From Euphorbia lathyris (taxonomy: Eukaryota > Streptophyta > Magnoliopsida > Malpighiales > Euphorbiaceae): 64,000 nt of DNA. Below, in pieces: positions 52,530-57,914 of the stretch (position 1 is its first letter; every line of letters starts with the position of its first letter). A program made the position numbers and the translations under genes. Location of the stretch: assembly GCF_963576675.1 (NCBI RefSeq), contig NC_088911.1, positions 88,875,256 through 88,939,255 of the forward strand. Reading direction: 5' to 3'. Under the pieces are notes generated by a model. The model saw only the letters and a list, made by a program, of their open reading frames with translations. It was not told the DNA's origin and did not search any database.

Positions 52530-52964
52530 ACCCGCTAGTACAGAAATGGCTTATGGCCACGCCTTATTAGTCACGGTTGTTTGCAAAACCGTGGCTATAG
52601 ATAATTGGGGTCGGTTATTTAAAAAACCGACTCAAATCATTAAAGCATTTGGGTCGGTTTTTTGAAAAAACCCGACTCTAAATGTGATTTTTAAAAATGA
52701 CACACGGTTTGAACGGTCATTGGTGTCGGTTCTTCTTAAACCGAGGCTAATAAGCAGTAATTAGTGTCGGTTTAAATATAAACCGAGAGCAATGAGCTAG
52801 TAATTGGCATTGGTTCAGGTAGAACCGACCCTAATTACTGGAGTTAATAGCGTCGGTTCATTGAAAACCAACGCCAATTACTTTTTAGAGTCGGTTAAAT
52901 AAAAAACCGACTCTGAAGATGAATATACGAACCGTGCCTATTGTTCTCACCATTTCTCTTTCTC

Positions 52965-53397
52965 TCCTTTGCGTAACCTAGATATTAGCAGCTCTCCTCC
53001 TTTACGCGAAACATGTTCCCTTTCTTCTAGACCCATATCAATGCTCTGAGTGCGAGTTTGAAGTTCGTCTGTGTGTTGTTGGTGTGCTTCATTCGTGTTC
53101 CGAGTCTAATAAAGGTAAGTGATTAACATGGGTTTTCTACATTTGATTCTACCGTTTGAGTTTAGGTTTCGTTTATAAAATCGTTTACAGTGCGATCGTT
53201 GGTTCGTGTTCTGAGTTTAGATTTTGATCGAATGGAACTCGTTGTGTTTCTGAATCACTGATTTGAGATCTAATTTTTTTTATGTATCTAGCACTATGGG
53301 AGAAACAAGAGATGACGATGCTTGCCAGGAGGAGCTTCTTGACTGCGAGGAAGAAGAAGAGAAAGCTCCTGACTCTACTGGTGCCGAAGTCAATTGA
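52965..53397 (+). pseudogene. captured UAP56/DEAD-box helicase 5' end
   Basis: A 5'-leader-like exon ends at ...GTCTAATAAAG|GTAAGT near 53114. After a 5'-UTR intron, acceptor CTAG at 53288-53291 leads to ATG 53296. The peptide MGETRDDDACQEELLDCEEE continues to KAPDSTG and a stop at 53395-53397. This matches the conserved N-terminus of plant UAP56 RNA helicases (mRNA export and splicing), with Cys where Tyr is usual. None of the helicase core is present. Confidence 0.75.
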
Positions 53398-53534
53398 GAT
53401 CGGCCAAGAAGTGAGCCACTAGAGGAGACGCCCTGATCTGCAGTACGTGTCGGCGAAGACGTCTGTGGGACATAGAGAACTGCTAGGTTCCCAAGAGCCG
53501 CGATCCCCATTTAATCGATCAGAACATAAGTTCC

Positions 53535-53670
53535 GCCCTTATTAAATTGAACTATTATGGCCGGTCTCCATCTCTGTGTACAGCGACACTAATCGGATTC
53601 CTCAATATGTCCAGCAAGCTCTCTCCAGCACTGGAATAGCCCTTGATCACATCCCTTCCCTTCCCGTATA
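53535..53670 (+). pseudogene. captured NYN-domain (limkain b1/MARF1-like) exon fragment
   Basis: PVSISVYSDTNRIPQYVQQA followed by LSSTGIALDHIP matches the NYN ribonuclease-like domain of plant limkain b1-type proteins (usual form G.VSISAYGDTN.IP...QQALSSTGIALNHVP). The acidic Asp of the metal site is kept. The rest of the gene is missing. Confidence 0.65.
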
Positions 53671-54446
53671 TCTATATCTATATCTCTATCTCTTTATTAT
53701 TATTATTATTGAATTTAAATTAAGGTTTTATGTGCTCTCATTTGCATATAAGTTAGCTAATTCGTTTTCCTGGTAAATATTTATTTCTAAATTAGGAGTT
53801 CGTCGTCCTATGGAAATGAGAATGTGCAGAGGATTGATTGAAGTAAAAGTAATAGAGCCAGCATTATGATGATTCAGGTATGATGAATGAAATTGGTTCT
53901 TTTAATTTGTGATTCATGTTTCAAACAGTTGGCTGTTAGTTTAAACTCTCTTCATTTACTGATTAGGCGCTCTGTTTCTGTTTGATAAAATGTCTAGCTT
54001 GAAAAGGCATTCTTAAATTTAGGGAAAAACATTTGATATAGTTCGGAATCTTTGTCCTCAAGTTTGTTGAACTAAATTTCAGATTCACAGTCTCTGTTCT
54101 TTAGGGAAAAACATTTGATATAGTTCGGATTTTTTAGTATGTATTCATCAGTTACTGCTGCATTATTGACTTTTTCTTGGTGGCATCAGGTTATAATGGT
54201 GAAGAATTGCTTACTTAGAATAGAATGGGTTGCTCAAGCCCTTGTACTTTGTGATGCTGTGAATGCTAAATAGTTTGTATTTTGCACAATTTGCAGCACA
54301 ATTGGTCGTCGTTTCAAGATGGAAACCCGAAGGAAGGAGCCGGGCAGAATGGGAAACAAAGCTACTCTGTGTGCATTATTGCTTGTAGTTGCTTGCTGAA
54401 TTTAATCGTTTTGGAGTAATTATATTTAATTGTTTTTGCATTTCAG

Positions 54447-54668
54447 GGTCAGTGAGTGATGCAAACTGCAAGGATTTGGCTGCACAACCTGATGTTGATG
54501 ATTTTTTGGTTGGTGGAGCCTCACTGAAGGTAAGTAATTGGATGGTTGTTAACTTATAATGCATTAAACTTTGTAAGTGTTTTTCCTTACTTTGTATTTT
54601 GTTTTGGCTGTGATCAGCCTGAGTTCATTGAAATTATCAAATCTGCGGAGATAAAGAAAAGCGGTTGA
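54447..54668 (+). pseudogene. captured triosephosphate isomerase C-terminal exons
   Basis: Exons 54447-54529 ([20 protein letters not shown], then LVGGASLK) and 54618-54668 (PEFIEIIKSAEIKKSG, stop) with GT-AG borders are the last two coding exons of a cytosolic plant TPI, including the phosphate-binding GGASL. The open frame and the natural stop are kept. They lie upstream of the exons that should precede them. Confidence 0.9.
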
Positions 54669-55264: not shown

Positions 55265-55272
55265 TTTCAGTA

Positions 55273-55895
55273 TTCATTGGGTTATCCTTGGTCACTCCGA
55301 AAGAAGACTTATTTTGGACGAGTCAAATGAGGTAGGCTATCCTAAAAGGTTCTAGTACTTGATATGCTGATGAGTGCCTCTTCATAAGTGCTTGCTTTTT
55401 GCTTTGCACTTGTGATAGTTTCTGATCATGTAAGAATTTTCATTTTAGTTTGTTGGAGATAAAGTTGCATATGCACTTTCCAAAGGTTTGAAAGTTATAG
55501 CTTGCGTTGGTGAGAGTTGGAGCAGCGTGAAGCAGAGTCTACTTTGGATGTTGTTGCTGCACAAACCAAAGCCATAGCTGGTAAGCATTCTGATTGCATT
55601 TTTCAGCATTGGTAGTTAACATATTTTATGTTAATCTTTTGTAAGTTTTTTCACGCATATGAATAATATAAAAGTCTATCATATATATATATATATATAT
55701 AAGGATGTAATTTGAATGTTTTCTTATGCATCATTATATCCATTATCTTAAAATTCTTTTAAATTTCTTAAATTAGTTCCATACTTTACTTTGATGATAG
55801 AGCGGGTAAAGGACTGGACAGATGTTGTTCTAGCCTATGAGCCTGTGTGGGCAATTGGAACAGGGAAGGTTGCATCACTTGCTCAGGCATAAGAA
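55273..55895 (+). pseudogene. captured triosephosphate isomerase middle exons
   Basis: Exon pieces 55273-55331 (WVILGHSERRLILDESNE, catalytic His-95 region), 55449-55580 ([20 protein letters not shown], with a one-base deletion after GES) and 55801-55895 ([20 protein letters not shown], with the catalytic Glu-165 [12 protein letters not shown]; then TAA for Gln). Borders are GT-AG. With the exons at 54447-54668 they cover much of TPI but in permuted order, so no isomerase can be made. Confidence 0.9.
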
Positions 55896-56669
55896 GTAAG
55901 TCTAGCCTTGTCTTTTTGATTGAGTTTATTCTCATCTGTGTGTATTGAGGACCTTTGTGTTGCTTCTCAGTATTATGAAACATATCTGCAATTCTGAAAT
56001 GTGGTGTTTTCAGTATTAAATTAGCAGCCTAGCAAGAACGTTGGTGAATTAATTTCATTGCCATGAACTTGGACAACATTGATTAGATCATCTCTATATA
56101 ATTTCCTTACAAACTCCTATATAAAGGATTAGAATGTTGGCACCTAGGATCATAAATTTTTGAGTTTGAGAATCGAGAACTATTAGGATGTCTTGCCAAA
56201 ACTTGTTTACACCACCAATTTCCTGTTTTCAACATAGAGAAAGGATTTCAATTTTTCTAGTCTATTTGCATGAATTTGTGAAGCATTCTACATTTCTATG
56301 TATGCAAAATTATTATAGTATTGTGATTGACATTGAGTTGTAGAAATTGAATTAATTAGTTACCGTATATAGTTATTTGAATGTTTTTTTAACGAGCAAT
56401 GATGCATTGTATAGTAGCTCCCTTCAATCCAAATCATTTCTGTACTAGTGACTATCTCCTTCTCTCAATTCACAGTTTTTTTTTTGTTTTTTTTGGGCTT
56501 TTGAACTTTAATTGGTAGCTGAACCGATTTCAAGCAAGTTTAAGAGAGAATGGTTGATTTTTTCTTTGATTGTTTTGCCTAAAGCTCCATAACGCTAATT
56601 AATCTTGCCTCTTCTTCTTTGTTCCTTTTCAACTTCGTTGATTACTAATTAGTGATCTGGTTATTTGTC

Positions 56670-57353
56670 CCCAACCCAAACCGCCATCACTGAGGATCTC
56701 GGACTTACTGTGCCAGAGGTATACAATAATACAGTATCTGTTTGATGCTAATTCTATTAGCTTGCGTTGGGCTTGATTTCTAATGCTTTTTAATTCTGGT
56801 TCAGTATTCGCTATTTGGTTCATTATCGAATGTGGGTGCTATGGTTGGGGCTATAGCAAGCGGCCAGATTGCTGAATACAATGGACGAAAAAGGGTAAGA
56901 ACAAGTAGTAGTACTTATGATTTATCTTTTTGTCCTTTGCTTTTAAGTTCTCGATTACTGAGTTTTGCTTTTTGCATTCACAGACTCTAATGATTGCTGC
57001 TATTCCTAATATTATTGGATGGCTTACTATATCTTTTGCCAGAGTGAGTTGAAACGATAAAGCATTTCTATTCTGAATGATTCTAAATTTATGTAAATTT
57101 CTTACATTACGATGTTAATTATATTTAAGGGTTAGTCTTTTTGTAGGATACTTCTTTTCTCTACATGGGAAGGTTGTTGGAAGGTTTTGGTGTTGGAATC
57201 CATATCATACATGCTAAATTTTGAGGATTTCCTTATTGTTTAATTGGGAAATTTGTGCCATGTATTGCTTACTGTACATGTCTTGTTTATAGTCTGCAGG
57301 TGCATGTTTATATAGCAGAAATATCACCTCAAAACCTGAGAGAAGATATGTGA
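56670..57353 (+). pseudogene. captured ERD6-like sugar transporter exons
   Basis: Five exon-like pieces with splice borders: about 56670-56718 (TAITEDLGLTVPE), 56805-56894 ([20 protein letters not shown], then [10 protein letters not shown]), 56994-57043 ([20 protein letters not shown]), 57147 to about 57222 (DTSFLYMGRLLEGFGVGI) and 57300-57353 (VHVYIAEISPQNLRED, stop). These are the first transmembrane helices of an MFS monosaccharide carrier, with the GRK/GRR loop and PxxIAEISP. The order is natural and the frame is mostly open. The C-terminal half is absent. Confidence 0.9.
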
Positions 57354-57914
57354 AATCGAAAAGATAGCAGAGATGCATTCAATGCTCAAGTATGTGAAGG
57401 CGAATAGCATATTAGTTGGTTCAACATTCATTACAGTTTTCCTATTTCAAAGAAAACCTTTTGCCCACAATTATGTCAGATTTTATTGTTGTAATATTTA
57501 TGCTTGTGATATGTGAATATAGTTCAGAGCTCCATTCAATCCAAAATATTTTATTTTATTTTTTTAATTAAAAACATATCAATGGCCACGGTTGTTCCAA
57601 CAACCGACTCTAATGGTTAGAGCATTAGAGTCGGTTGTTTCAACAACCGACTCTAATGGTTAAGGGCATTAGAGTCGGTTGTAACAAACAACCGTGGCTA
57701 AAGACCCCTTTAGCCACGGTTTTTCGTAACAACCGTCGCCAAAACATAAAACATTAGAGTCGGTTATATGTAAAAACCGATCCTAATGCCCATTTGGTCA
57801 CGGTTGAACAACCGTGGCTAAAGATTCCAAGCATTTGCCACGCCTCTTTTGGCCACAGTTTCCGTGACTAATGAGGGTAAACGACCGTGGCCGTAGGCTA
57901 TTTCTGTACTAGTG

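Follow-up and report, generated by a model that had tools for sequence, protein, structure and literature searches.

Pack-MULEs, transposons with Mutator ends and 9-bp duplications, carry pieces of several genes. The transposon that we analysed in Euphorbia lathyris, within a 64-kb stretch of contig NC_088911.1 (the whole DNA analysed, hereafter the window), resembles them in carrying several genes' pieces and differs from them by its CACTA ends and 3-bp duplication. Capture of several genes by a CACTA element is already known from soybean Tgm-Express1, which lies within the intron of a gene that is expressed (Zabala and Vodkin 2007, PMC1947982). In contrast to Tgm-Express1, the window element is known from sequence alone, and its single-module relatives, a fossil end on its inside and a point of recombination can be seen. 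For Pack-CACTA (Pack-TYPE) elements, a model of fusion between neighbouring insertions has been put forward (Gisby and Catoni 2022, PMC8903248), which treats the earlier Pack-TYPE work of Catoni et al. 2019 (via PMC8903248 and PMC13317346). As the main text of PMC8903248 presents it, two neighbours fuse and the inner ends are lost by deletion or mutation, giving AB and BB fusions, much as we propose here; unlike the cases treated there, the window element has more modules, relatives that can be traced in one genome, and sequence exchanged within a captured gene, and the words "recombination" and "nested" have no occurrence in that main text. The window element is an unusually complete case of an already proposed fusion.

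Element structure and genomic copies

The element is a non-autonomous Pack-CACTA transposon of 5,382 bp (52533-57914; Table 1). An earlier note on this DNA had placed a CACTA element with matching terminal repeats exactly here, and both the coordinates and the ACC on either side were borne out. Inverted repeats of 27 nt (52535-52561 and 57886-57912) are 89% complementary, and the terminal motif (at most 3 mismatches) has 3 matches in the 64-kb window versus 0.04 expected, the third being internal to the element (56433-56450). The 5' end reads CGCTA in place of CACTA, a single change, the 3' end, read in reverse (CACTAGTACAGAAATAGC), has a CACTA-type start, and in the copy C8a both termini read CACTA. 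Terminal repeats of this type, with subterminal repeats at both ends and a 3-bp target site duplication, assign the element to the CACTA (En/Spm) transposons. Helitrons have neither terminal inverted repeats nor target site duplications, and MULEs have terminal inverted repeats with a 9-bp duplication; since the element has CACTA ends and a 3-bp duplication, we rejected membership in the Helitrons and the Pack-MULEs. CACTA elements are mobilised by a transposase of the TNP2/TNPA type, either their own or one acting in trans; no reading frame of at least 110 aa was found inside this element. It encloses host coding fragments between its ends and is multi-copy and mobile with its cargo, as the different duplications of the window and C8a copies attest, which makes it a Pack-CACTA.

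C8a (C8:6851516-6856778) is a second near-identical copy on another chromosome (99%; 23 substitutions in 5,235 aligned sites), with the same ends and AGT on either side. It lacks the TAGTG end at the TPI/ERD6 junction, which we take as a later deletion. The 3-bp duplications match in all eight loci with both ends recognised (window ACC, C8a AGT, C8b ATA, C4b TTG, C3 CAT, C7 TAC, C5a TTT, C10b TTT); the twelve loci outside this count (C1, C10c, C5b, C6, C4c, C8c, C8d, C8e, C8f, C4d, C1b and C4e) have one end or none within the sequence stretch examined. The ends therefore recur with other target duplications in other family members, as the earlier note had expected. The genome has complete CACTA elements with their own 3-bp duplications in which UAP56, NYN, UAP56+NYN, TPI or ERD6 were the only modules detected, together with a damaged NYN+X+TPI element. 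C9 has no recognisable 3' terminus, about 4.4 kb upstream of C10a showed no 5' end, and in C10b TPI starts later (q1888) and the subterminal repeats are of another type. Among the best 40 of 6,041 candidates, only two were near-full copies of the window element, and no locus held the four fragments in the same order without CACTA ends; such a locus would have told against the earlier note. The whole-genome DNA searches scored these best candidates only, so that copy numbers are lower bounds; BLAST pieces shorter than 30, 40 or 60 bases were omitted from the locus comparisons. Scans for terminal inverted repeats allowed 4 or 5 mismatches, and weak matches (at most 5 mismatches) in or beside C3, C5a, C9 and NYNp were regarded as chance.

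Table 1. Features of the window element (window positions)
Feature	Position	Strand	Remark
Left target site duplication, ACC	52530..52532	.	other copies have different duplications
5' terminal inverted repeat, CGCTAGTACAGAAATGGC	52533..52550	+	family form CACTAGTACAGAAATGGC
5' subterminal repeats, AACCGACTC / GAGTCGGTT type	52567..52923	+	5' end of UAP56-element lineage
UAP56/DEAD-box helicase 15-56, putative leader and start exon	53003..53415	+	33 codons, then stop
NYN-domain gene fragment	53419..54099	+	first exon without its ATG, plus intron sequence
Recombination interval in NYN (q1182-q1236)	53714..53768	+	left C4b-like, right C9-like
36-bp re-copy of 54018-54053 (94%) at NYN/X seam	54100..54135	+	repeat family D9
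Gene-like fragment X	54121..54356	+	repeated elsewhere in genome at 89-91%
TPI block 1	54359..54840	+	exons encoding residues 211-254, and the 3' part
Nested short inverted-repeat (MITE-like) element inside TPI	54918..55263	.	346 bp
TPI block 2	55266..56336	+	exons encoding residues 89-185, with an internal frameshift and stop
CACTA family 3' inner region (fossil)	56354..56438	+	
Fossil 3' terminal repeat, CATTTCTGTACTAGTG	56435..56450	-	subterminal repeats probably deleted at CATT repeat
ERD6-like sugar transporter fragment	56451..57345	+	from intron 1 onward
Start of further coding-like piece, fused to ERD6	57346..57416	+	
Partial, diverged repeat of the 3' inner region, at the outer 3' end	57528..57551	+	repeat family D12, 88%
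3' subterminal repeats	57578..57840	+	outer 3' end groups with ERD6-carrying elements
3' terminal inverted repeat	57897..57914	-	
Right target site duplication, ACC	57915..57917	.	

Captured gene fragments

The element holds, as the earlier note had claimed, pieces of at least four unrelated host genes (UAP56, NYN, triosephosphate isomerase (TPI) and ERD6-like), all on the plus strand and with intron remnants, and beyond these at least two further gene-like pieces (54121-54356 and 57346-57416). The identities of the TPI and ERD6-like fragments are well supported. The UAP56 N-terminus shares 18 of 26 residues, from residue 1, with a cassava RNA helicase (E 0.003, a single comparison), and had no Pfam or PDB match of its own; the same segment is present in the complete elements C7 (L015+L044) and C4b (L025+L010+L038), while no UAP56 exon was found within the 3 kb examined at C9:6053582, a match to the leader (89%). 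The 42-aa NYN piece of the window gave no Pfam match by itself, and its identity is supported by the longer reading of its relatives C9 and C8c (PF01936); the complete element C5a (L019+L045) contains NYN and none of the other three genes. A CACTAG at 53417, on the UAP56/NYN seam, was rejected as a fossil end: C4b has CCGCTGG there, so that CACTAG is a later change and no terminus. Neither fragment X, as read from its relative L034, nor the piece after ERD6 matched a Pfam family above the cut-off. From its sequence we read the re-copy at the NYN/X seam as reflecting template switching.

The order of the TPI exons is swapped in the window, those for residues 211-254 preceding those for residues 89-185, although in the gene copy of TPI block 2 lies upstream of block 1; no exon for residues 185-211 is present, and the swapped order is also found in C10b and C9. 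The MITE-like element within TPI has a 9-bp duplication, TTTCAGTAT, one base outside each side (54908-54916 and 55265-55273). ERD6 is broken off at one identical place in all six aligned copies (two gene-like loci excluded), and in these copies the further coding-like piece is joined on at that point. The reading frames of the captured fragments are broken, and 18 of 19 splice boundaries keep their GT or AG, one ERD6 donor being lost (placed by eye, and neither a blind nor a full score). In its present state the element most likely carries the host fragments as passengers, and a spliced chimeric RNA is possible.

Recombination and probable fusion of elements

The UAP56/NYN junction is present in the window and C4b, and the NYN/X junction in the window and C9; the first is absent from C9, C5a, C5b and C8c, and the second from C4b, C5a, C5b and C8c. 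In unrooted trees, the left block of NYN groups the window, C8a and C8b with C4b (support 97), and the right block groups the window and C8a with C9 (support 100). Among 49 substitution sites, from which gap columns were excluded (the first list, gaps included, had 105 rows), 16 of 22 are C4b-like to the left of the breakpoint versus 1 of 27 to its right, a split equalled by none of 10,000 shuffles. Some observations count against fusion: the remaining 6 left-block sites agree with C9; in the UAP56 module C4b is no closer to the window than C7 is (0.067 vs 0.059); and in TPI there is no clean donor, since the window, C9 and C10b differ from one another to about the same degree. The later TPI start and the different subterminal repeats of C10b, and the swapped TPI order that C10b and C9 share with the window, weigh on the same side. 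We looked for a clean TPI crossover between C9-like and C10b-like copies and found none.

The two ends of the element indicate, from their distances, an origin in different element lineages. The 5' end is 0.103 from both C4b and C7, an equality that again counts against fusion, and 0.41 from the ERD6 element C3, while the 3' end is 0.09-0.14 from the ERD6-carrying C3, C6, C4d and C8e versus 0.20-0.22 from C7, C5a and C4b. Two 3' ends lie in tandem in the window, the inner keeping only its last 12-16 bp and the outer belonging to the lineage of the ERD6 elements. All four further copies of the inner region, when read onward, run into subterminal repeats and the terminal repeat; in the window and C10a, AATCATT jumps to TCTGTACTAGTG, followed by the ERD6 sequence ACTATCTCC. 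Such inner-end remains, with ends of different origin, are the marks of a fusion product. On the other side, ERD6 intron 1 reads CTGTA(C/G) at the seam in C7erd and C3, and the ERD6 element C3 starts to match the window 11 bases (q3908) ahead of where the fossil terminus stops; as many as 8 of the 12 bases in that terminus could therefore derive from the gene.

The NYN breakpoint, the ends of different lineages and the fossil 3' end at the TPI/ERD6 seam thus argue that the window element is probably a Pack-CACTA that arose by fusion of other such elements in this genome. Of the earlier note's claim that a CACTA element had assembled host genes, the content of at least four genes stands; the assembly was probably a fusion of older Pack-CACTA elements. 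The UAP56-NYN part is common to a C4b-like element and the NYN-X-TPI part to a C9-like one, with the change-over in the shared NYN, where the two would have been joined as by crossover or template switch. The resulting UAP56-NYN-X-TPI element would then have landed, with matching orientation, in intron 1 of the ERD6 fragment of an ERD6-carrying element; no surviving locus in a nested or neighbouring starting state was found, so that we infer this insertion. A deletion between CATT repeats would have removed the inner 3' subterminal repeats. In En/Spm, the subterminal repeats are binding sites for the TNPA protein; their loss probably killed the inner 3' end, and transposase acting in trans would have paired the 5' end with the 3' end that follows further out, since the inner end had no subterminal repeats. 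Everything between the 5' end and the outer 3' end would thereby have become a single mobile unit, which would have moved at least once more, giving the ACC and AGT copies.

It is highly improbable that a single CACTA element captured at least four host genes successively by gap repair, the elements with fewer modules being its deletion derivatives. The re-copy at the NYN/X seam does resemble template switching, and C8b (q3-1390 plus q5023-5382, duplication ATA) fits a deletion derivative, but relative to the window C5a, C9 and C8c have extra NYN sequence upstream and C4b has it downstream, C3 carries exon 1 of ERD6, which is absent from the window, and C5a, C9 and C3 have 5' ends of other lineages. 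These elements are therefore not plain deletion products of the window element, and successive capture is already contradicted for C5a, C9, C4b and C3; single seams may still derive from template switching. We also consider it unlikely that C9 is the recombinant, a UAP56-NYN-X-TPI element having existed first and C9 having later gained a C5a-like left part. The pattern of the two junctions alone cannot tell which element recombined, but in the right NYN block C4b joins C8c (66) as well as the C5 elements (100 for the split), apart from the window and C9, as expected if the window took this block from a C9-like element.

The TPI/ERD6 seam could be no fossil terminus at all, its likeness to a terminal repeat arising by chance at an end-joining junction: ERD6 intron 1 reads CTGTAG there in C7erd and CTGTACTA in C3, CATT is part of the left side, and much of the 16-bp match could be borrowed. 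We hold this to be quite improbable, because the preceding ~85 bp are the family's 3' inner region in the correct orientation, and because in gene-like C7erd and C2erd the ERD6 match begins with the base that directly follows the terminus. Moreover, in 139,820 bp of sequence from the loci, a total that counts overlaps and the window copy, the 12-mer TCTGTACTAGTG (in either orientation) occurs at element ends and at the window/C10a seam, with one further, unclassified site upstream of ERD6 in C2erd. As for domestication as a chimeric gene, or a role as a source of small RNAs directed at the parent genes, the exons lie on the same strand and keep most of their splice boundaries as placed by eye, and Tgm-Express1 exons are spliced into chimeric mRNAs (PMC1947982); with stops and frameshifts in UAP56 and TPI and only two near-full copies among the best candidates, we find such a role most improbable.

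Significance of a probable fusion

Beyond this element, captured gene fragments might offer different Pack-CACTA elements islands of homology for recombination. Exon shuffling would then run as a reticulate network in which modules are swapped inside a shared captured gene, elements nest in each other, and fusion follows when an inner end is passed over after losing its subterminal repeats; we give this wider view even chances. Until now, the collection of several genes' pieces by DNA transposons has been mostly a model. Here, the genome keeps relatives of the parts from before and after the fusion, and each of them has a target duplication of its own. One can therefore read and test the order in which things happened, the inactive inner end and the exchange within a captured gene. 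The proposed fusion route thus becomes directly testable, and recombination in captured host DNA is a possible second way of joining modules.

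A second copy and relatives of the element

We searched the assembly (1.02 Gb in 33 contigs, C1 to C10 measuring 76 to 143 Mb each), in which the window occupies C2:88875256-88939255, for sequences related to the non-autonomous Pack-CACTA element of the window. The earlier note had delimited a CACTA element with an ACC target duplication; element, duplication and coordinates are all exact. That its ends recur elsewhere was borne out by the whole-genome search, which, within the best 40 of 6,041 candidates, returned a near-full copy, C8a (L002 and L005), with the ends of the window element and a different duplication on both sides. 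The two copies differ by 23 substitutions over 5,235 sites; at a plant substitution rate of about 7e-9 per site per year, they would have split roughly 0.3 million years ago. The closest frames of at least 110 amino acids end at 50869 on the left of the element and start at 58810 on its right.

Relatives were collected by reading outward from hits. Both ends were recognised in eight loci, the window included, and the 3-bp flanks are equal in all eight. Some related elements are not shorter than the window element, and the shared parts are about 80-98% alike; these elements are relatives of the donors, not the donors themselves. Locus C9 combines a 5' end with NYN, which begins at its own start there, X (a gene-like fragment) and triosephosphate isomerase (TPI); no 3' terminus is recognisable. 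In the TPI-carrying element L007/L027/L037/L047, the 3' end with GTGTCGC subterminal repeats lies behind an inner region of the other family and is a hybrid end; its 2.75-kb insertion is bounded by two copies of nine bases (q2237-2245, q denoting positions within the window element). Locus L012 has a 5'-type CACTA terminus at its position 705, with a second ERD6-like copy ~770 bp downstream of it; this locus is possibly one more ERD6-carrying element.

Features of the window (positions without contig) and related loci
Feature	Position	Flanks	Length	Content
Expansin-like frame	851-1501			adjoins the tandem array; family name by reading
Tandem array	1951-4892			141-bp unit, ~21 copies, 91% matches
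PPR gene	22959-24278			matches a Euphorbia lathyris protein at 100% identity over 95% of query
Gypsy-like stretch	38129-44792			frames resembling a Gypsy-type LTR retrotransposon (gag, protease, reverse transcriptase, integrase), by reading
Mobile-domain-like frames	45336-47897			after the Gypsy-like stretch, by reading
Window element	52533-57914	ACC	5,382 bp	UAP56, NYN, X, TPI, ERD6-like
X	54121-54356			gene-like piece
TPI residues 211-254	about 54446-54665
Inverted-repeat element	54918-55263		346 bp	nested in TPI fragment; 9-bp duplication
TPI residues 89-185	about 55272-55898
TPI/ERD6 seam	~56354-56450			3' inner region and probable fossil end
Short piece	from 57346			gene-like
C8a	C8	AGT		second copy
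C8b	C8	ATA		window type without q1391-5022
C7	C7	TAC	5,987 bp	UAP56, without the other three
C5a	C5	TTT	4,923 bp	NYN, without the others
C4b	C4	TTG	4,028 bp	UAP56 and NYN
C3	C3	CAT	4,626 bp	ERD6
C10b	C10	TTT	7,921 bp	TPI; other subterminal repeats; 2.75-kb insertion
L007/L027/L037/L047	C10:26736928-26747400, minus strand			TPI
L012	C2:53105624-53109515			ERD6-like
X copies (89-91%)	C10:6712494 (L034); C7:61574961; C5:75795714; C2:78094633; C1:116522231
Elements marked "without" the others do not match the remainder of the window element; further DNA is present in both C7 and C5a.

Captured gene fragments

Parts of the four host genes named in the earlier note (TPI, ERD6-like, NYN and the UAP56 N-terminus) are present. 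UAP56 is the least secure: 18 of 26 residues are identical to the very start of a cassava helicase, and the fragment itself matched nothing in Pfam or PDB. The TPI exons stand in permuted order, with residues 211-254 preceding residues 89-185; in a TPI gene copy at C4:70.78 Mb the order is normal, and the exon for 185-211 lies between the two. Pieces related to the inverted-repeat element nested in the TPI fragment also occur in C8c and C10a.

Two gene-like pieces come in addition to these four. X also occurs in at least five places that lie outside these elements, where it may belong to another repeated element carrying genes; pieces related to it at 74-76% lie at C5:13.3-14.1 Mb. The short piece, on our own reading, appears to extend into a coding-like stretch in both C3 and C4d. 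The UAP56 frame meets a stop after 33 codons, and the TPI fragment carries one frameshift and one stop. GT or AG is kept at 18 of 19 splice boundaries, picked by eye from the window itself in a choice neither blind nor complete; one ERD6 donor reads CT in the window and GT in the gene copy. Chimeric transcripts like those described for Tgm-Express1 (PMC1947982) would be possible.

A probable fossil 3' end and two ends of different lineages

At the TPI/ERD6 seam, the 3' inner region of the CACTA family is followed by AATCATT, TCTGTACTAGTG and ERD6 intron 1. With 56343-56470 as query, the window and C10a, whose seam is the same, match throughout, and six partial matches were found besides among the matches listed. 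Five of these (C10b and four further loci) end at one base, q3906, and C9 25 bases earlier. Downstream, the four further loci carry the subterminal repeats of the window element's family and a terminal repeat 270-520 bp on; C10b continues with other repeats and its own terminus. A deletion between two CATT copies would account for the seam sequence of the window, and C8a looks to have lost the seam through a later deletion.

The likeness of the seam to a terminal repeat might instead be due to chance, which we consider unlikely. The match to ERD6 in the gene-like loci C7erd and C2erd begins one base past the fossil terminus; just before this point, CTGTAG stands in the gene and CTGTACTA in the ERD6 element C3. 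The terminal-repeat match is therefore weakened by up to eight bases, over which C3 itself resembles the repeat. In a scan of 139,820 bp of loci, overlaps included, the exact fossil 12-mer was confined to element ends and the seam, apart from one unclassified occurrence in C2erd, upstream of ERD6.

The ERD6 fragment has an identical end point in the six aligned copies other than the two gene-like loci, which continue past it. The outer 3' end lies at a distance of 0.09-0.14 from those of the ERD6-carrying C3, C6, C4d and C8e, and of 0.20-0.22 from C7, C5a and C4b. In contrast, the 5' end is of the C4b and C7 type (0.10, versus 0.41 for C3). The two ends thus stem from different lineages. Because ERD6 exon 1 is present in C3 and absent from the window, C3 is not derived from the window type.

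Apparent exchange within NYN and probable formation of the element

The window shares its UAP56|NYN junction with C4b and its NYN|X junction with C9. Among the informative substitution sites of the NYN alignment, the 22 up to q1182 include 16 at which the window is C4b-like, and the 27 from q1236 include one (maximum chi-square 25.5, matched in 0 of 10,000 shuffles); unrooted trees join the window group to C4b for the first block (97) and to C9 for the second (100). These junctions, switch and trees suggest a DNA exchange between two elements inside their common captured NYN fragment. Against a simple exchange count the UAP56 module, in which C4b (0.067) is not closer to the window than C7 (0.059), and TPI, for which comparison among copies gave no clean donor.

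We regard fusion of older Pack-CACTA elements as the probable origin of the window element. The starting state would presumably have been nested. According to PMC2613891, the En/Spm protein TNPA recognises subterminal repeats, the cis-determinants of excision and transposition. The inner end, with a terminal repeat of 12-16 bp and no such repeats, should function badly, so that a transposase would take the next 3' end as the partner of the 5' end. This is the route of the deletion branch in the fusion model of Gisby and Catoni (PMC8903248), and the window element keeps the trace in place. For at least one other seam, a 36-bp re-copy between NYN and X points to template switching as a candidate mechanism.

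Multi-gene CACTA elements (PMC1947982) and fusion of neighbouring elements (PMC8903248) are already in print. In the literature within reach, we found neither an exchange within a captured gene nor a capture seam with a fossil inner CACTA end described; this is weak evidence of absence, as subscription papers lay beyond that literature. The window element holds unusually complete evidence of its own formation.
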